Made by a program: the position numbers and the translations under genes. From a virus: a DNA stretch of 31,984 nt. The notes under the pieces are model-generated. The model was not told the DNA's origin. It saw only the letters and a program-made list of their open reading frames with translations, and made no database searches. Location: positions 1 through 31,984 of the IMG/VR virus record IMGVR_UViG_3300020391_000012. One strand, given 5' to 3'. Below are positions 3,261-12,012 of this stretch, piece by piece. Position 1 is the stretch's first letter, and each line of letters begins with the position of its first letter.

Positions 3261-3431
3261 ATGCCTGGTATGATGAAAGAAAAATTAGAAAAGTCTCTAA
3301 TGGCAAAAGCCAAACAAAAAGGTTTGAAGGGCAAAGCTGCTGATAGTTATGTATATGGTACTATGACAAAGATCGGTGGATCTAAGTTTGCCAACAAAGC
3401 ATCAAAGATGGGTTCTGTTAGATCTACATGA
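3261..3431 (+). CDS. Small basic protein, 56 aa
   Basis: ATG 3261 follows the previous TAA by one base; TGA 3429-3431 overlaps the next ATG (ATGA). The protein is rich in Lys, Met, Ala and Gly (begins MPGMMKEKLEKSLMAKAKQK) and ends SKMGSVRST. No domain is recognised. It is supported by the perfect head-to-tail packing with its neighbours and by composition matching the other cassette members. Confidence 0.65.
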   Translation: MPGMMKEKLEKSLMAKAKQKGLKGKAADSYVYGTMTKIGGSKFANKASKMGSVRST

Positions 3432-4007: not shown

Positions 4008-4027
4008 TTGTACACATTTTGTACACA
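4008..4027 (+). repeat. Tandem TGTACACA element, copy 1 (P side of attP)
   Basis: The sequence is TTGTACACATTTTGTACACA: two TGTACACA octamers in direct orientation with an 11-base period, about one helical turn. It is identical over 20 bases to the copy at 4228-4247 and matches the copy at 11872-11891 except in the spacer and first base. It ends 87 bases before the tRNA-derived core. It is a candidate integrase arm-type site or a site for another DNA-binding protein. Confidence 0.7.
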
Positions 4028-4061
4028 CTTTTTCGAGGGAATGAGTGGGAACTCTATAGCC

Positions 4062-4087
4062 GTATTTCCAAGAATACCCACCTTTTT
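4062..4087 (+). terminator. Possible weak terminator
   Basis: GTATT (4062-4066) pairs with AATAC (4073-4077) around a 6-base loop. Four more bases (CCAC, 4078-4081) could pair with upstream GTGG (4045-4048), and a run of five T follows at 4083-4087. It lies downstream of the basic gene cassette. The stem is short and AT-rich, so termination is uncertain. Confidence 0.3.
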
Positions 4088-4114
4088 ACACTTCACGCAT
4101 AGATATTTATCGAA

Positions 4115-4159
4115 CTGTCACGCCGGAGGTCGCGAGTTCGAGTCTCGTCACTCTCGCCA
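4115..4159 (+). other. attP core: 3' half of tRNA-Asp(GTC)
   Basis: The segment reads as the 3' part of a tRNA: anticodon loop CTGTCAC (4115-4121, anticodon GTC), 3' anticodon-stem strand GCCGG, 5-base variable loop, T arm GCGAG-TTCGAGT-CTCGT (4132-4148), acceptor strand CACTCTC, discriminator G and CCA (4157-4159). The bases before 4115 do not complete the anticodon stem, so homology begins in the anticodon loop. Integration through such a fragment restores an intact host tRNA gene. The host gene's acceptor 5' strand should therefore read GAGAGTG. Confidence 0.85.
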
Positions 4160-4227
4160 TTATATCCCCAGTAATATCAATGGCTTATCCCCCAAAAGAC
4201 CTTTCCCAAAACTTACATAAATTTAGC

Positions 4228-4247
4228 TTGTACACATTTTGTACACA
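4228..4247 (+). repeat. Tandem TGTACACA element, copy 2 (P' side of attP)
   Basis: TTGTACACATTTTGTACACA again, identical to 4008-4027 and in the same orientation, 68 bases after the tRNA-derived core. It is followed by a run of T. Its position opposite copy 1 across the core suggests integrase or recombination directionality factor binding, but the third copy at 11872-11891 argues for a wider role. Confidence 0.7.
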
Positions 4248-4272
4248 TTTTTTTCTGTTGTTCTCTTGTAAA

Positions 4273-4302
4273 TGTGACAGTAGCTGTTATATATATGATA
4301 TA
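4273..4302 (+). promoter_or_regulatory. Putative operator and promoter of the integrase operon
   Basis: The imperfect inverted repeat TGTGACAGTAGCTGTTATA (4273-4291) has the same half-site spacing (5 bases) and core (TGACA/TGTYA) as the three operators around the repressor gene. GTGACA (4274-4279) could serve as -35 with GATATA (4297-4302) as -10 at 17 bases; TTGTAA (4266-4271) with ATATAT (4289-4294) is an alternative. Repressor control of integrase is inferred from this match only. Confidence 0.5.
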
Positions 4303-4328
4303 AGGTGTTAACAAAAGCGGAGAAAAAA

Positions 4329-4478
4329 ATGTCATATAGAATAGGTAACTGGTATGTTTATCATGTTGAAGCAAACAAAGAATGGGTAGCTAGATCTCAA
4401 GATCAAGTTCATGTTTTTTCAAGAAAAAAAGACGCAGTAGATTTTGCTAATACTCAATTTATGATAGGAGCTAAGTAA
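4329..4478 (+). CDS. Small protein upstream of integrase, 49 aa
   Basis: ATG 4329 follows a GCGGAGA ribosome-binding site at a suitable distance, and TAA 4476-4478 overlaps the integrase ATG (TAATG), so the two are probably co-translated. The peptide starts MSYRIGNWYVYHVEANKEWV and ends FANTQFMIGAK. Its style, an aromatic-rich 'how the protein reads its substrate' repeat, resembles the N-terminal arm/AP2-like motif at the start of the integrase itself (VRYWEARKHWVIDARL). It could be a detached DNA-binding arm, but this is a guess; no family is recognised. Confidence 0.65.
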   Translation: MSYRIGNWYVYHVEANKEWVARSQDQVHVFSRKKDAVDFANTQFMIGAK

Positions 4479-5626
4479 TGAAAGATCTTAAAGTAAGATA
4501 TTGGGAAGCTAGAAAGCATTGGGTAATTGATGCAAGGCTAGTTGGTCTTAACAATAGATATGGTAACTACCCATCACAAAAAGCAGCTATTAAAGAAGCT
4601 GAATTACTTAAAGCTAAATTTATTACTGGTGCGATTGCAGAAAAAGTTGACGTAGTAAAAGTATCCCAGGCAGTAGAAAAATTTTATCATCATCAAACAA
4701 CCAGGCAAGAAAACAAAGAGGTATCTATTTCTTTTTTCAAAGAGATTAAAACTTCATTAGATTATTGTTTGGCTATCAAGATTGATGGCAAGAAATTTTT
4801 AGATCAAAGTTTTGATATTATTAAAAGAGAAAACAAATCTGAATTAGTTACAGCTTTTGTAAAAGGTATTACTGACGAAGGTAAGTCAAAAGCTACAGCT
4901 GAAAAAAGAATAAAAGTTTTAAAAATGTTTTTAAATTATTGTGATCTTAAAGGTTGGATTACAATTAACCCTCTTGATAAAGTATCATTAGGTATGTCAG
5001 CCGAGATCGGAGATAGGGCGCCAAGAATACAGCCTGAGACAATTCAAAAGATTGTTAGTGACGGATTACCAGCTGAAACTCTTTATGATCAGTGTATGGT
5101 GCTTACAGCTCTTGCAAGTGGTATGAGACAAGGTGAGCTGCGTGCATTGAAGTGGGGCAACATTGATTTTGATGATTTAATAATTAATGTTGAAGGTGCA
5201 GTTAAACACGGCACAATGGTTATTGGTGATACTAAAACTAAAAGAGGTAGAAGACAAATACCTATTGATGCGCAGACTATGAAGAAACTTAAAGAGCTAA
5301 AGATTGCATCAAAGTTTAGCGCACCTGGTGACATTGTTTTTGCAAGCTCTAACGGTACACCAAAAGTACAAAAGATATTGATCAAACTAATTAAAAGAGT
5401 TTGTAATACAGCTGGTGTAAAACCTATTCTATGGGGCGATATGAGACACTTTTATGCTTCAGATAAGTTAAGCACCCTAGGTGAAGATTGGACAGAAGTA
5501 GCAGCTCTTATGGGGCATTCAAACCCAAACTTTACTTACAAGCAGTATGGTCACTTTATCAAAAACAAATCAAAGCAAGATAAGGTTAGACAATCATCTG
5601 CTTCAGCAATGTATGGCGGAAATTAA
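4478..5626 (+). CDS. int: Tyrosine integrase, 382 aa
   Basis: Site-specific recombinase expected to insert the phage at host tRNA-Asp. An N-terminal arm-binding region (~1-50) and core-binding SAM-like domain (~60-165) are followed by the catalytic domain. Visible catalytic residues are Arg217 (SGMRQGELRALKW), Lys253/255 (TKTKRGRR), Arg323 (WGDMRHFYAS), His347 (LMGHSNPNF) and the nucleophile Tyr357 (YKQYGHF). Where the first His of HxxR is usual (H-D-L-R-H), this protein has Gly320, in WGDMRH. Length is normal for phage integrases. The start overlaps the preceding 49-aa gene. The gene is convergent with the excisionase, and their stop codons share bases. Confidence 0.95.
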   Translation: MKDLKVRYWEARKHWVIDARLVGLNNRYGNYPSQKAAIKEAELLKAKFITGAIAEKVDVVKVSQAVEKFYHHQTTRQENKEVSISFFKEIKTSLDYCLAIKIDGKKFLDQSFDIIKRENKSELVTAFVKGITDEGKSKATAEKRIKVLKMFLNYCDLKGWITINPLDKVSLGMSAEIGDRAPRIQPETIQKIVSDGLPAETLYDQCMVLTALASGMRQGELRALKWGNIDFDDLIINVEGAVKHGTMVIGDTKTKRGRRQIPIDAQTMKKLKELKIASKFSAPGDIVFASSNGTPKVQKILIKLIKRVCNTAGVKPILWGDMRHFYASDKLSTLGEDWTEVAALMGHSNPNFTYKQYGHFIKNKSKQDKVRQSSASAMYGGN

Positions 5627-5632
5627 TCCGCC
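5615..5632. terminator. Stem-loop at convergent int/xis ends
   Basis: GGCGGA (5615-5620), loop AATTAA, TCCGCC (5627-5632): a perfect 6-bp GC-rich stem whose loop contains both the int stop (TAA 5624-5626) and the xis stop (TTA 5623-5625). There is no T run on either side, so it is not a textbook intrinsic terminator. It may still separate the two convergent transcripts or protect their 3' ends. Confidence 0.4.
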
Positions 5633-5823
5633 ATCATTTCAGATTCAATGCGTAATATTTCAGACTTAGGAATAAAATATACTCTTGAATCTTTGATAGA
5701 TTTTATTTTACCAGTTTGTATCCAGCGATATATTCTCTTTCGATTTGTATCACCAAAGTCACCAAACAATCTTATAGCTACTTCTTTAGGTCTAAGCAGA
5801 GATCTACCTTCCAGGGAAACCAT
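5623..5823 (-). CDS. xis: Excisionase / AlpA-like HTH protein, 66 aa
   Basis: Small winged-helix DNA-binding protein: LLRPKEVAIRLFGD, then RKRIYRWIQTGKIKSIKDSR and VYFIPKSEILRIE. This is the pattern of excisionase/MerR-like HTH_17 proteins (helix-turn-helix, then a wing with 'G-x-I...'). The 5' end has three ATG in a row (5829, 5826, 5823); AGGAG lies directly before the first, so 5823 has the best spacing (6 bases) and is chosen. It is last in the leftward operon and faces integrase. Role inferred: with Int, directs excision when the leftward promoter is active. Confidence 0.8.
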   Translation of the reverse strand: MVSLEGRSLLRPKEVAIRLFGDFGDTNRKRIYRWIQTGKIKSIKDSRVYFIPKSEILRIESEMMAD

Positions 5824-6100
5824 CATCATCTCCTATAGGTGTTGAGCTGCTTTGAAACATTGCTTTTTTCTCATCAGGTAAAAATAGATTAGCGCTACCC
5901 ATATTTGTATAAGTATCTATCTCTTTCCTTTGCAGTTGTATTGATGGTGATTTATTTGCTATAGCATAATACTTTTCTAGCTGGTCAACTAAATTTTGAT
6001 CATCAATATTAAACCAAAAACCAACTGATATTTGATCTGTTGCATTTATAGATCCATTCAATCTTAATTTACTATTCTTCATATTAGGCGCTGACGGCAT
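5804..6100 (-). CDS. Unknown phage protein in recombination operon, 98 aa
   Basis: ATG 6100 has a good ribosome-binding site (AAAGGAAA) and overlaps the end of the annealing-protein gene by 17 bases; its end overlaps the excisionase start. The protein reads KLRLNGSINATDQISVGFWF, then INDDQNL-like acidic segments, and has a Gly/Asp-rich C-terminus (GDDDGFPGR). The acidic tail after a small beta-rich domain is reminiscent of single-stranded-DNA-binding proteins, but no OB-fold signature is evident. I do not recognise the family. Confidence 0.7.
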   Translation of the reverse strand: MPSAPNMKNSKLRLNGSINATDQISVGFWFNIDDQNLVDQLEKYYAIANKSPSIQLQRKEIDTYTNMGSANLFLPDEKKAMFQSSSTPIGDDDGFPGR

Positions 6101-6737
6101 CTTGTTTCCTTTCTTTGTAAGCGTTAAATAATTTTGTGTGTAAGTTTTTATCCAAATCAGCTAATGATTTTAGGTTGTCTGATTCTTGTTGTGTCCAAAC
6201 AACCAGGGCATTTGCATTCATGCTTTGAATTTTTTCTATTTGCTGTTCCACATATTTTGTAGCAGCTGCTAATTTATCTTTAGGATCACCTTCAGGTTTA
6301 GGATTTTTATTCATCTTTTCTTTTTTCCCCTTGGCAATTTCAATTTCATTTAAACTGGCGTATTCACCACCGTGAATAGACAAAGAAGCTAATGCTCGAC
6401 CAATCGAACTTGTCTCTGCTACCTCTAAAGCTGATGTTGTGTTTATATTTTTATCACTTCCAAGCTCATGAAAACCGCCACCAATAATTTCTTCAGCTGT
6501 TCCTGAACCAATTTGAAAACCATCTTTGTTAACAATGGTAGCTTTCATAACAATTTTTTCACCAATTTCAGTGCCATATTTTAAAAGTTCAGTATTTATT
6601 CCATACTCAAAACCAGTATGCTTTCTGAAAACTTCTACTCTTTGTGAGATAACTGAATAATTTTTACCTTTAATATTTACTTTTTTTGCCGCTTGTATTT
6701 CAGCTAAAATATTATTTATTACATCCGCTTCAATCAT
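6084..6737 (-). CDS. Candidate single-strand annealing protein (Rad52/Sak- or ERF-like), 217 aa
   Basis: A GGAAG site precedes ATG 6737. The N-terminal ~130 residues contain YSVISQRVEVFRKHTGFEYG, then IVMKATIVNKDGFQIGSGTA, and residues ~99-118 read NTTSALEVAETSSIGRALAS followed by GGEYAS. The 'TSALE-x-AETS-x-GRALA...GGEYAS' signature is common in phage proteins assigned to Rad52/ERF-like single-strand annealing proteins. Residues ~130-217 are a Lys/Gln-rich, more variable tail. Partner evidence: a PD-(D/E)XK exonuclease starts the same operon, as in Red-type systems. The fold assignment needs a profile search; other DNA-binding roles are not excluded. Confidence 0.65.
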   Translation of the reverse strand: MIEADVINNILAEIQAAKKVNIKGKNYSVISQRVEVFRKHTGFEYGINTELLKYGTEIGEKIVMKATIVNKDGFQIGSGTAEEIIGGGFHELGSDKNINTTSALEVAETSSIGRALASLSIHGGEYASLNEIEIAKGKKEKMNKNPKPEGDPKDKLAAATKYVEQQIEKIQSMNANALVVWTQQESDNLKSLADLDKNLHTKLFNAYKERKQDAVSA

Positions 6738-7068
6738 TACTTCCTTCTACTCCTCTTATCTCAAATACACCTTTGTATTGAGGGTTATTCTTCATCCAAA
6801 GCCGTGAATAATATGCTTTGTGATGATCATTTATTTTAAGTTTTTTATCGTTGTCAGTGTGATCCTGGATGACAACATTAGTTTCCCAGCGTATCCGTTC
6901 CATGATAAGAGCTGCGCCTACCTTACGCATTCCTTTATCTAGACACTCAAGGGTAAATTTATCCCATAGCCTATAAACTATTGGATATCTTTTATGGAAC
7001 TCTAGAAAGCGTGCTTCACGGACGTTTCTAGGTATCTCTAATTTATCAAACATATTGGTTTGGATCAT
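6730..7068 (-). CDS. Conserved phage protein of unknown function, 112 aa
   Basis: I start it at ATG 7068, which overlaps the stop of the 46-aa gene (ATGA). A longer open frame begins at 7143, but that extension only runs across the small upstream gene in another frame. Distinctive residues are RWETNVVI, then KINDHHKAYYSRLWMKNNPQ and YKGVFEIRG at the C-terminus. I recall this 'N-(D)-H...YYARLWM...P-x-x-x-G-x-F-x-x-R' pattern from proteins encoded next to phage recombination genes, with no established role. It is probably a partner or accessory of the recombination module. Confidence 0.8.
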   Translation of the reverse strand: MIQTNMFDKLEIPRNVREARFLEFHKRYPIVYRLWDKFTLECLDKGMRKVGAALIMERIRWETNVVIQDHTDNDKKLKINDHHKAYYSRLWMKNNPQYKGVFEIRGVEGSND

Positions 7069-7205
7069 AGGACTATCAATAAAAAGATAATGAAAGCAAT
7101 GAAGCTGCAAAAGCCAAGCAGCTCTATAAATCCTACAATCCAAAAAGATGTATTGTCTTGTTTGGGTGTAGCCTTTTTAATATGCATATGCAGATACTTG
7201 TTCAT
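7065..7205 (-). CDS. 46-aa single-TM protein in recombination operon
   Basis: ATG 7205 overlaps the exonuclease stop as ATGA, and its TGA (7065-7067) overlaps the next ATG as ATGA. Such double coupling is strong evidence for a real gene. The peptide has a basic N-terminus (MNKYLHMHIKKATPKQDN) and a hydrophobic C-terminal half (residues ~21-46: FWIVGFIELLGFCSFIAFII, then FLLIVL), predicting one membrane helix ending at the C-terminus. Its place among DNA-recombination genes is unexpected. Function is unknown; membrane targeting or a host-takeover/exclusion role are possible. Confidence 0.75.
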   Translation of the reverse strand: MNKYLHMHIKKATPKQDNTSFWIVGFIELLGFCSFIAFIIFLLIVL

Positions 7206-8128
7206 CGGACAAATCCCCATAGTTGTTTTGCTTCTTTCAAAACTTCAGGATGAATATCCCAGGCAAACATATGGCTAAAGTCAGGCTCTACCAGCTGTAT
7301 CAACTCATGAACTGTTTGCGCTGATTTAAGCTGGTTTTCACGGATACGACATTTAGCGACAATGTGGTTCCAAATATTTTTTAGTGATTCAGGAGATAGT
7401 TTTTCACAATTCTCTTCAGTGAATATTCTATATCCATTTTCATTGGCATAAACTATTGCCTGGGGATCTTGCTTATATGCCCAGTAACCAGCCACCTGGC
7501 ATAAATGCGACCAAGTAGGTTGTGAAGGCGTGCTTGGTGATCTCTTGCCTGATTTAGTGTTAGCTACACTTGCCCAGGTTGTCTTCAATTCTATTTGACC
7601 GTTGAAGTCAGGCTTTCCGTTATACTCCAGGTCTAATCCCGGAACTCCAAACATATAATTACGTTCACCTTCTAGTTTATTGATACGCATTTTATTCTGC
7701 GCTTCATCTAAACCTTCTAATGCATTCTTAAATACATCAGCAAAACTATTGATACATAGATCTAGCTGCAATGCATCCTTGCCATCATCCCAGCTCTTAG
7801 GTTTATATTCAGCAAAAATTTCTTTACCAGCATCGATACAATCTTCAATAGTATCTGCTTTATTATGTATTCGGTAATCATCTATTAGGGTTTGTACAAC
7901 TCGACCAGCTGTCATTTTAGCTGCATCATTAGTGTATTTAGTTATTTGAGTAGAAGCCTGATCTTTATCGCCTTCCTTCTCACCTTTTACAATAGACCAG
8001 GCTATATCCAGCTTTGGTCTAATTATACATTTATCAAAGTATGTTCTACATACTGGTCTACTTTCAGGATTTGAATGCCATAAGTAGTTTTTCTTTATTG
8101 CCCAGCTGGGCAGTGTGGGGAACTCCAT
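7202..8128 (-). CDS. PD-(D/E)XK exonuclease (RecB/Cas4-like), 308 aa
   Basis: First gene of the leftward operon, starting at ATG 8128, about 27 bases after the inferred transcription start, with no clear Shine-Dalgarno site. Residues GKPDFNGQIELKTTW give the nuclease core Asp174-x5-Glu180-x-Lys182. The downstream Gln211 in HLCQVAGYW matches the QhxxY-type motif IV of RecB/Cas4-like nucleases. The N-terminal ~150 residues are helical and would carry the upstream Glu/His motif. Cys residues near the termini are not arranged as a clear Fe-S cluster. Role inferred: 5'-3' resection of linear DNA for the annealing protein, for phage recombination or concatemer formation. Confidence 0.85.
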   Translation of the reverse strand: MEFPTLPSWAIKKNYLWHSNPESRPVCRTYFDKCIIRPKLDIAWSIVKGEKEGDKDQASTQITKYTNDAAKMTAGRVVQTLIDDYRIHNKADTIEDCIDAGKEIFAEYKPKSWDDGKDALQLDLCINSFADVFKNALEGLDEAQNKMRINKLEGERNYMFGVPGLDLEYNGKPDFNGQIELKTTWASVANTKSGKRSPSTPSQPTWSHLCQVAGYWAYKQDPQAIVYANENGYRIFTEENCEKLSPESLKNIWNHIVAKCRIRENQLKSAQTVHELIQLVEPDFSHMFAWDIHPEVLKEAKQLWGFVR

Positions 8129-8161
8129 ATTTCTAACCGCATCTGTTAACTATTAGATGGG

Positions 8162-8191
8162 ATTAGAATATAATTGACAGCTGTTGTCAAT
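8162..8191 (-). promoter_or_regulatory. Leftward early promoter with operator (PL-like)
   Basis: On the minus strand, TTGACA (8185-8190) and TCTAAT (8162-8167) are separated by 17 bases, a good sigma70 promoter. The perfect inverted repeat ATTGACAGCTGTTGTCAAT (8173-8191) covers the -35 and half of the spacer, so binding would block RNA polymerase. Transcription would start near 8155 and read the exonuclease-to-excisionase operon. Confidence 0.7.
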
Positions 8192-8198
8192 TTTAAAT

Positions 8199-8864
8199 TT
8201 ATTTTATTTCTATACCTAACAAATCAGGACGTTCAGCTCTTCCTAAAACTGGACACGCCCAGGATAATTCAACGTCAGTTAATATTGCTTGCCCAAATTT
8301 TAGAGGTTCGATGGTGTATTTACCGCTTTGCTGTTTGTGTATAACGGCTTGCCTTATTACTTTTGTTTTAGCGCATTTAAATATACAGCATCGACTTAGA
8401 GCATCTTGAGGTATTGATTCTTGTTGTATTGGACGCATATCTACCCAGGTTACAGATCCATCAAAGTAAGAATTAAATTCAGGTCTGCTATTAGTAAAGG
8501 CGCCAACGTAATTAGCGAATCGTATAACAGATGTATCTATGAAGGTTTCTTTTTCGCTTGAGCTAACCATATCCACAAAAAATCCATCAGTTATATTGCC
8601 AAATACTTTTACTCTGCAAGGATCAAACAAAATAGCAGTAGGATCTATTTGTAATATATCTGCATATTCAATGGCATCCTGGATACTAAAGTTAGACCGT
8701 CCTGATATATGCCTACTAAGGCTTTCAGGCGCTATACCTTTAGCAGCCGCAACCTCGGCATGAGACATTCCTGATAGGCTAATATACTTTTTTAGATTAT
8801 TGACCATATAGCTGTACTTATCCCCTAAAACAGATGATCTATAAAATTGAATTCGTGTGTTCAT
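8199..8864 (-). CDS. CI-type phage repressor, XRE-family HTH with S24-like C-terminal domain, 221 aa
   Basis: Start ATG 8864 has GAGGT (8871-8875) six bases upstream. Residues ~20-80 form an XRE helix-turn-helix (MVNNLKKYISLSGM, SHAEVAAAKGIAPESLSRHI, then SGRSNFSIQDAIEYADILQI). The C-terminal part ends KYTIEPLKFGQAILTDVELS and WACPVLG, similar to the last strands of LexA/CI peptidase_S24 domains. No catalytic Ser-Met or Lys motif is apparent, so self-cleavage is doubtful. It is divergent from the Cro-like gene, with two operators between and a third just downstream at the leftward promoter. It probably maintains lysogeny. Confidence 0.85.
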   Translation of the reverse strand: MNTRIQFYRSSVLGDKYSYMVNNLKKYISLSGMSHAEVAAAKGIAPESLSRHISGRSNFSIQDAIEYADILQIDPTAILFDPCRVKVFGNITDGFFVDMVSSSEKETFIDTSVIRFANYVGAFTNSRPEFNSYFDGSVTWVDMRPIQQESIPQDALSRCCIFKCAKTKVIRQAVIHKQQSGKYTIEPLKFGQAILTDVELSWACPVLGRAERPDLLGIEIK

Positions 8865-8888
8865 ATGTTTACCTCAACTAAAAAAATA

Positions 8889-8917
8889 ATACTATGACAT
8901 AAACTGTCATAAGTAAA
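8889..8917 (-). promoter_or_regulatory. Repressor promoter with operator (PRM-like)
   Basis: On the minus strand, TTTACT (8912-8917) and TAGTAT (8889-8894) are 17 bases apart. The perfect inverted repeat TATGACATAAACTGTCATA (8893-8911) fills the spacer and touches the -10. Repressor bound here would repress its own gene. The transcript would start near 8882, leaving a short leader with the GAGGT site. Confidence 0.6.
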
Positions 8918-8933
8918 ATTAAATAATTAACTG

Positions 8934-8970
8934 TATTGACCGTATCTGTCAATAATATATAATGCAGAAA
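8934..8970 (+). promoter_or_regulatory. Rightward early promoter with operator (PR-like)
   Basis: TTGACC (8936-8941) and TATAAT (8958-8963) are 16 bases apart. The inverted repeat ATTGACCGTATCTGTCAAT (8935-8953, one mismatch between arms) covers the -35. The expected start point, about seven bases after the -10, coincides with the ATG of the Cro-like gene at 8970, suggesting a leaderless message. Confidence 0.7.
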
Positions 8971-11736: not shown

Positions 11737-11867
11737 CTATATATAAAAGATCTTCTGCTTGTCTTAGCTACACGCGCGAGGATCAATGCCAGGCTGAACG
11801 GCTATTTAGTTCGATGCCCTGGAAAGCTGTAACTCAAGGTGGTATTCAAATATTTATAGAAGGATGA
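11724..11867 (+). other. Open stretch without a start codon between terS and terL
   Basis: The frame is open from 11724 to TGA 11865-11867 and reads like protein (TREDQCQAERLFSSMPWKAV then TQGGIQIFIEG), with two CCWGG sites as in neighbouring genes. Its only ATG is about 30 codons in. It may be a gene with a non-standard start, an extension reached by frameshifting from the end of terS (overlap 11724-11736), or a decayed gene. None of these is demonstrated. Confidence 0.3.
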
Positions 11868-11871
11868 TCTA

Positions 11872-11891
11872 ATGTACACATTATGTACACA
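11872..11891 (+). repeat. Tandem TGTACACA element, copy 3 (between terS and terL)
   Basis: ATGTACACATTATGTACACA: two TGTACACA octamers with the same 11-base period as the copies at 4008 and 4228, followed by a run of A. It lies where pac or cos-like signals often lie, near the terminase genes. The shared geometry implies a common binding protein. Confidence 0.65.
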
Positions 11892-12012
11892 AAAAAAAGG
11901 TCAAATTTCCTACAGCAACACCCTATATACCCAAAGTTGCGGCGCAGAGTCTATATACGTAAATACAGATTGGAGAGTGTCTTACACTCATGCAGATAAC
12001 GATACCCTATAA
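11872..12012 (+). CDS. Possible 46-aa protein overlapping terL start
   Basis: ATG 11872 to TAA 12010-12012, overlapping terL by 23 bases in another frame. The peptide begins MYTLCTQKKGQISYSNTLYT and has no recognisable motif. Its first codons are formed by the TGTACACA element, so the frame may simply be a by-product of that site. It has an AAGGATG context upstream (11860-11866) that could serve as a ribosome-binding site. Confidence 0.3.
   Translation: MYTLCTQKKGQISYSNTLYTQSCGAESIYVNTDWRVSYTHADNDTL
11975..11989 (+). promoter_or_regulatory. Hairpin abutting the terL start codon
   Basis: GAGTGT (11975-11980), loop CTT, ACACTC (11984-11989): a perfect 6-bp stem ending on the base before ATG 11990. 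The only Shine-Dalgarno-like sequence (GGAG, 11972-11975) is at the base of the stem. Folding would bring it next to the start codon or hide it, so terL translation may be structure-controlled. Confidence 0.4.

Follow-up and report, generated by a model that had tools for sequence, protein, structure and literature searches.

The window analysed here is the entire IMG/VR virus record IMGVR_UViG_3300020391_000012 (31,984 bases), and the system in question is its lysis/lysogeny switch. A CI-type repressor gene and a cro-like gene diverge from each other in the lambda-type CI/Cro layout, a leftward operon ends in an excisionase-like gene, and a tyrosine integrase gene (int) stands behind its own promoter, PInt, next to the phage attachment site attP (Table 1). 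The attP core comprises 45 nt, with one mismatch to the tRNA-Asp genes of L101, L102, L105, L109 and L110; an attP core that equals a tRNA 3' end beside int marks a tRNA-integrating temperate phage. The portal protein is at most 54% identical to those of HTVC010P-type pelagiphages, over 97–99% of its length, and from these relatives we infer a marine, SAR11-phage-like temperate phage that infects SAR11. Comparison of the whole window with the DNA of named phages gave no match, nor did a protein search with the window repressor; for an integrated prophage, a single integrase scan of sequenced genome contigs returned only a 27%-identical Clostridiales match. HTVC010P-related contigs carrying an integrase and att sites have been noted (PMC3861242), and other HTVC010P-related genomes, unlike the window phage, have been described as lytic and without integrase (PMC6811365).

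Four inverted repeats, which we call OL, OM, OR and OInt, stand where the initial annotation had located them. Their arms are complementary at 7/7 positions in OL and OM, 6/7 in OR and 5/7 in OInt. Perfect dyads of 7 + 7 bases around a five-base centre are expected 3.6 times per shuffled genome and occur four times in the window overall, so symmetry alone is no proof; the signal is the common half-site, with the core TGAC-N7-GTCA and the best form WTGACA-N5-TGTCAW. For the position-matrix scan that the initial annotation had suggested, the matrix was trained on sites of the cI/cro/exo (left-operon) region of the window, L004, L005 and L009, with int sites excluded. Among 31,966 window positions, the four repeats ranked as the top four, scoring 24.0, 22.2, 20.6 and, for OInt, 16.1 bits, the last being 6 bits above the fifth-best match (9.9 bits). 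With this int-free four-record matrix, a match as good as OInt is expected 0.0475 times per order-3 shuffled genome, and the same chance is 0.16–0.17 with a matrix from the three other window sites alone, both values being computed before a position next to int was demanded. At about 5% or 17%, the fourth site in one genome is suggestive, not proven.

Viral contig scans yielded, as close relatives, 13 records with a close integrase (L003–L015) and L099. The dyad is found upstream of the int operon in 14/14 of these records, and it precedes the extra gene that stands before int in L010, L012, L013, L015 and L099. The initial annotation had let its proposal depend on the presence of the operator at syntenic sites in relatives with the same repressor; it is present at the int position in L003, L005, L007 and L008, and likewise in all remaining close relatives, so the proposal was not refuted. 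Across 12 sequences, conservation amounts to 95% in the arms, 85% upstream, 70% in the five-base centre and 81% downstream. The PInt spacer measures 16 bp (18 is likewise possible), and both the -35 and the -10 are retained across relatives. An immunity operator within the int promoter is a conserved feature of this group.

The left arm of OInt reads TATGTCA in L004, L006 and L008, a form that occurs too in the cI-promoter operator of L005, L007, L008 and L009. Covariation of the OInt variant with the repressor type was considered and rejected, as L008 (78% identical CI) and L004 (47% identical CI) share one variant; this lack of covariation is consistent with a shared recognition helix. The top matrix match upstream of int in L013 (position 3642) was also rejected, being within the intervening gene; the syntenic site lies at 3331. 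In L009, the integrase frame is interrupted by a stop at codon 10 (L009:6028–6030) and is intact beyond it, an open reading frame (ORF) running from 6064.

Table 1. Features of the switch, attachment and terminase regions of the window (HTH, helix-turn-helix).
Feature	Position	Strand	Details and support
Two pairs of arm-type repeats TGTACACA flanking attP	4009..4247	+	Copies at 4009/4020 and 4229/4240
attP core, 3' part of tRNA-Asp(GTC)	4115..4159	+	Adjoins int
PInt, -35 TTGTAA (4266-4271), -10 TATATA (4288-4293)	4266..4293	+	Sequence
OInt, TGTGACA-N5-TGTTATA, inside the PInt spacer	4273..4291	+	Fourth-best matrix match; syntenic copies
Small ORF between PInt and int	4305..4478	+	Differs or absent in relatives
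Tyrosine integrase	4478..5626	+	PF00589 3.5e-20, phrog_1 3.6e-44
HTH protein, excisionase-like, at the end of the leftward operon	5623..5829	-	PF12728 8.4e-6, just under cut-off
Leftward operon: nuclease-like (7202-8128), small ORFs, annealing-protein-like (6084-6737)	6084..8128	-	ORFs
PL, -35 TTGACA inside OL (8173-8191), 17 bp, -10 TCTAAT (8167-8162)	8162..8191	-	
CI-type repressor, 221 aa	8199..8864	-	PF01381 (HTH_3) 2.7e-5, above cut-off
OM, TATGACA-N5-TGTCATA, between TTTACT and TAGTAT of the cI promoter	8893..8911	-	
OR, ATTGACC-N5-TGTCAAT, over the -35 of PR (TTGACC-16-TATAAT)	8935..8953	+	Syntenic
Cro-like HTH protein, 69 aa	8970..9179	+	HTH weak by sequence
Third arm-type pair, TGTACACA-N3-TGTACACA, between TerS and TerL	11873..11891	+	Upstream of terL (11990)

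A Cro-alignment scan collected 80 loci, to which an Int-alignment scan added L098. The 11 distant records examined at int have integrases 21–52% identical to that of the window phage, from which they also differ in attachment sequences and arm repeats; an operator lies before int in 10 of them, mostly inside the int promoter or overlapping it. The operator core is located no more than about 85 bp upstream of int or the int operon in L032, L044, L045, L050, L073, L074, L078, L081, L083 and L098. The exact core TGAC-N7-GTCA occurs within 150 bp of the int operon in L044, L045 (with L050), L073, L074 (with L078 and L081) and L083, i.e., five distant lineages carry the exact 8-base core where 0.0003–0.0025 matches would be expected by chance. 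This expectation derives from shuffles; a control over the upstream regions of all ORFs was dropped (exact core in 22/274), as it included spurious ORFs beside the switch. L032 has a one-mismatch copy of the core, and the int site of L098 is CTTGACATTAGATGTCATA. In L083, two int-side sites were found, of which GACATAAAATGTC is the reverse complement of the cro-side site of the same record, GACATTTTATGTC. With promoters read by eye, the close clade, L032, L074 and L083 have the dyad within the -35/-10 spacer, and L044 has it over the -35.

The other three operators are conserved as well. OR precedes cro in all close relatives whose records extend far enough, including those without cI; OM is syntenic in L003–L005, L007–L010, L021, L022, L028 and L029; OL is retained in L003–L005, L007–L010 and L022. 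Close relatives with a cI gene have both OL and OM wherever the region is covered, and common operators overlap PL and PR. The good sigma70 promoters that had been assigned to these three sites proved to be so at PR only (11/12), PL and the cI promoter being weaker, and promoter-like matches are not enriched in the region (17 versus 20.3 in shuffles). Repressors of the relatives fall into a close type (72–78% identical) and a distant type (47–50%); the recognition-helix region, APESLSRHISG, is invariant apart from one I/V in A4, and its identity even in the 47–50%-identical repressors would explain the single operator family.

Taken together, one operator family at the promoters of the leftward operon, cI, cro and int strongly supports one regulon that comprises the leftward recombination and excision operon, cI, cro and int, and the integrase is very probably wired to the same lysis/lysogeny switch. 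This part of the initial annotation stands, while its view of CI as the protein in control needs amending: CI is not the sole candidate, as cI-less relatives keep cro and the int operator. In our preferred reading, which we consider likely, a lambda-like CI/Cro switch acts through single operators at PL, the cI promoter, PR and PInt, closing PInt in turn. From the sites, their positions, conservation and rank, which are read from the sequence, we infer binding by CI and Cro, repression and the order of action. When bound to OL or OR, CI or Cro would mask the -35 of the respective promoter, PL or PR, and when bound to OM or OInt it would sit between the -35 and the -10; since the dyad takes up the PInt spacer, RNA polymerase would be blocked there by the bound protein. 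Early after infection, with both regulators still low, PInt would be open and integrase made by default; CI (in lysogeny) or Cro (in lytic growth) would then close PInt, after PL and PR, since the int site is the weakest (16 versus 21–24 bits) and int should be silenced last. Neither xis nor int would be expressed in the lysogen, and loss of CI would open PL and PInt together, providing Xis and Int for excision.

Several observations weigh against this reading. OInt is the least symmetric of the four sites, and its copy in L013 is degenerate; in L037, the upstream element is only a one-mismatch copy at chance level, and L045/L050 lack clearly identified cro-side operators, the match there being to the general core only. 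Moreover, TTGACA-type half-sites look like -35 boxes, and at the PL and PR sites this resemblance to the -35 consensus inflates the similarity of one arm; the promoter does not account for the other arm, TGTCAAT. Finally, OInt is kept in relatives without cI, where CI need not read it.

These relatives bear on which protein acts at PInt. In L011, L012 and L013, cI is absent from the stretch between the left operon and cro, and the records (8.3, 33.7 and 12.9 kb) contain no CI match; cro, OR and OInt are retained, OL and OM are lost or degraded, and the tRNA attP core is missing upstream of PInt, yet a full-length integrase remains. Since OInt is maintained there without CI, the Cro-like protein has to be counted among its possible readers; it is at least as good a candidate as CI and probably acts at PInt as well. 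Its conservation (79–100% identity in all close relatives, the highest of the regulators) would even fit a version in which PInt is physiologically regulated by Cro instead of CI, with integrase turned off in lytic growth and a small effect of CI. However, L011 and L013 are fragments, int sites in cI-bearing records are as good or better, and CI and Cro of lambda-type switches normally read common operators; we regard this version as rather unlikely.

A second alternative is that PInt is regulated chiefly by excisionase or integrase bound at att, the dyad being incidental. The int promoters of P4 and KplE1 are repressed in this way by excisionase (PMC7498355), and the PInt -35 is preceded, at a distance of about 20 bp, by arm-type repeats. 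These are direct repeats, spaced 11 bp within a pair, and both attP pairs switch together in relatives, to TGTTAACA, TGTAGACA, TGTTTGCA or TGTAC[TC]CA. Residue 27 of Int (R, N, Y, A and K for the five arm types) is the sole one of 380 columns that groups 11 phages in full agreement with the repeats, residues 26 and 25 coming next, whereas a comparison of the excisionases among relatives does not follow the repeat type. Because the repeats track Int residues 25–27 and not the excisionase, the attP direct repeats are very probably integrase arm sites, as predicted from sequence, and autoregulation by Int could still be superimposed. Control by an att-bound protein would, however, leave unexplained the match of the dyad to the cI/cro operators and its retention when the repeats change, and we hold it to be improbable as the main mechanism.

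The sign of control is not readable from sequence, and a bound protein might activate PInt; however, a protein between the two promoter boxes, where most lineages have the dyad, or over the -35, where L044 has it, normally blocks polymerase, and activation is highly improbable. Chance resemblance of the fourth site, for which the shuffles (about 5% of genomes with a match as good) and the 5/7 matching arm pairs could be cited, is refuted by its syntenic conservation in the close int-bearing records and in most distant lineages, and its likelihood is negligible.

The preferred reading, a CI/Cro switch that also closes PInt, can be compared with known systems. As in lambda, cI and cro-like genes diverge, operators lie at PL, PR and the cI promoter, and one operator family is presumably read by both proteins; unlike lambda, the window phage has single operators in place of triplets, its cI-promoter operator lies in the promoter spacer, and int has its own operator-bearing promoter, while in lambda the int promoter is activated by CII. 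No CII-like gene was noticed among the profile-scanned genes of the region, where no search aimed at CII was made. The best structural match of the predicted repressor model, of low confidence with a predicted local distance difference test (pLDDT) of 62, is the CI of phage 186 (PDB 2fjr, 7jvt); fold matches to 186 CI and lambda CI range from E 1.4e-5 to 9e-4, and the predicted C-terminal beta fold appears to resemble theirs, while operators and genome type differ from phage 186. Compared with Pfam and NCBIfam at E up to 0.1, the window CI gave no Peptidase_S24 match, which agrees with a repressor that is not cleaved, as in 186, and cleavage upon DNA damage would perhaps not be expected. The stoperators of mycobacteriophages L5/D29 are another case of a single phage repressor acting at several dispersed sites (PMC5712189), with about 24 asymmetric, mostly intergenic sites in L5 in contrast to four dyads, all in promoters, in the window. 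With P4/KplE1, the window phage would share an int promoter beside att under phage repression, the difference being that the repressor there is the excisionase at att and the site here is an immunity operator (PMC7498355).

Accordingly, a multi-operator phage repressor (PMC5712189) and phage proteins that repress int (PMC7498355) are already known; an earlier report of repressor operators in the int promoter of such phages was not found in a mainly open-access literature, within which immunity operators in the int promoter across a phage group are a new aspect of the CI/Cro switch. Phages related to these rank among the most frequent viruses in the ocean, and little is known about the way in which they decide for lysis or lysogeny. 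With int as one of its four sites, the regulon predicts a simple decision without CII, to integrate early by default and then lock. The operator motif could serve to locate switch genes and int promoters of uncultured marine phages, the natural cI-less variants separate CI from Cro, and both the Int specificity residues 25–27 and the third arm pair before terL (see below) are directly testable.

Further features of the switch region were noted. The predicted model of the Cro-like protein (pLDDT 74.7) has its best Foldseek match in P22 c2 at a weak E of 0.26, with VIA-align Z of at most 2.4; Aca1, ParB and others in the fold list were discarded as having no meaning at Z of about 2. The PR -10 ends 6 bases before the cro ATG (8958–8970), and the cro mRNA is therefore probably leaderless or nearly so. 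The nuclease-like and annealing-protein-like genes were named by position, with weak sequence support; in the pelagiphage HTVC034P, a Cro relative similarly stands beside annotated nuclease and single-strand-annealing genes. The excisionase-like gene has further matches to phrog_66 (3e-4) and TIGR01764 (0.008). It is convergent with int, the stop codons overlapping at 5623–5626, so PL transcripts would enter int as antisense; no terminator was seen at this junction. Among L035–L068, many records with a Cro relative, and no cI or int found nearby, keep TTGACA-N5-TGTCAA-type dyads before cro and elsewhere, which suggests a Cro-only regulon.

The third arm-type pair lies far from attP, between TerS and TerL, and no such pair arose in 400 shuffles. 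A pair occupies the terL position in 9/9 close records that reach there, window included. It is of the record's own attP arm type in the six other close records with known arms, the exception being L010, which has TGTACACA at terL and TGTAC[TC]CA at attP. The terL-side type is TGTTAACA in the L006/L021 record and TGTTTGCA in L012 and L013, where the pair persists despite the lack of cI and of a tRNA attP core, int being kept. Among distant records, terL-side pairs of the own arm type were found in L044 (GGGTACA, 9657) and in the L098 record (TGTACTAC, 19673); further positions are L021:4724, L030:8953, L026:9497, L027:7879 and L116:1501. In L021 versus L022, the flanks are near-identical and the repeats differ. 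We tentatively propose, leaning slightly against it ourselves, that Int, as a member of the CI/Cro regulon, may bind the terL-side pair too and so couple terminase expression or packaging to the lysis/lysogeny switch.

The TerS–TerL gap as a whole (11737–11989) is a conserved non-coding element. As an RNA, it had no Rfam match, and 0 of 40 predicted pairs were changed on both sides; with no support for an RNA, a DNA element is likelier, possibly a packaging site. In distant lineages (L116, L034, L045 and L074), the gap contains recurring CGCRCGAGG and CCCTATATACCC-like stretches.

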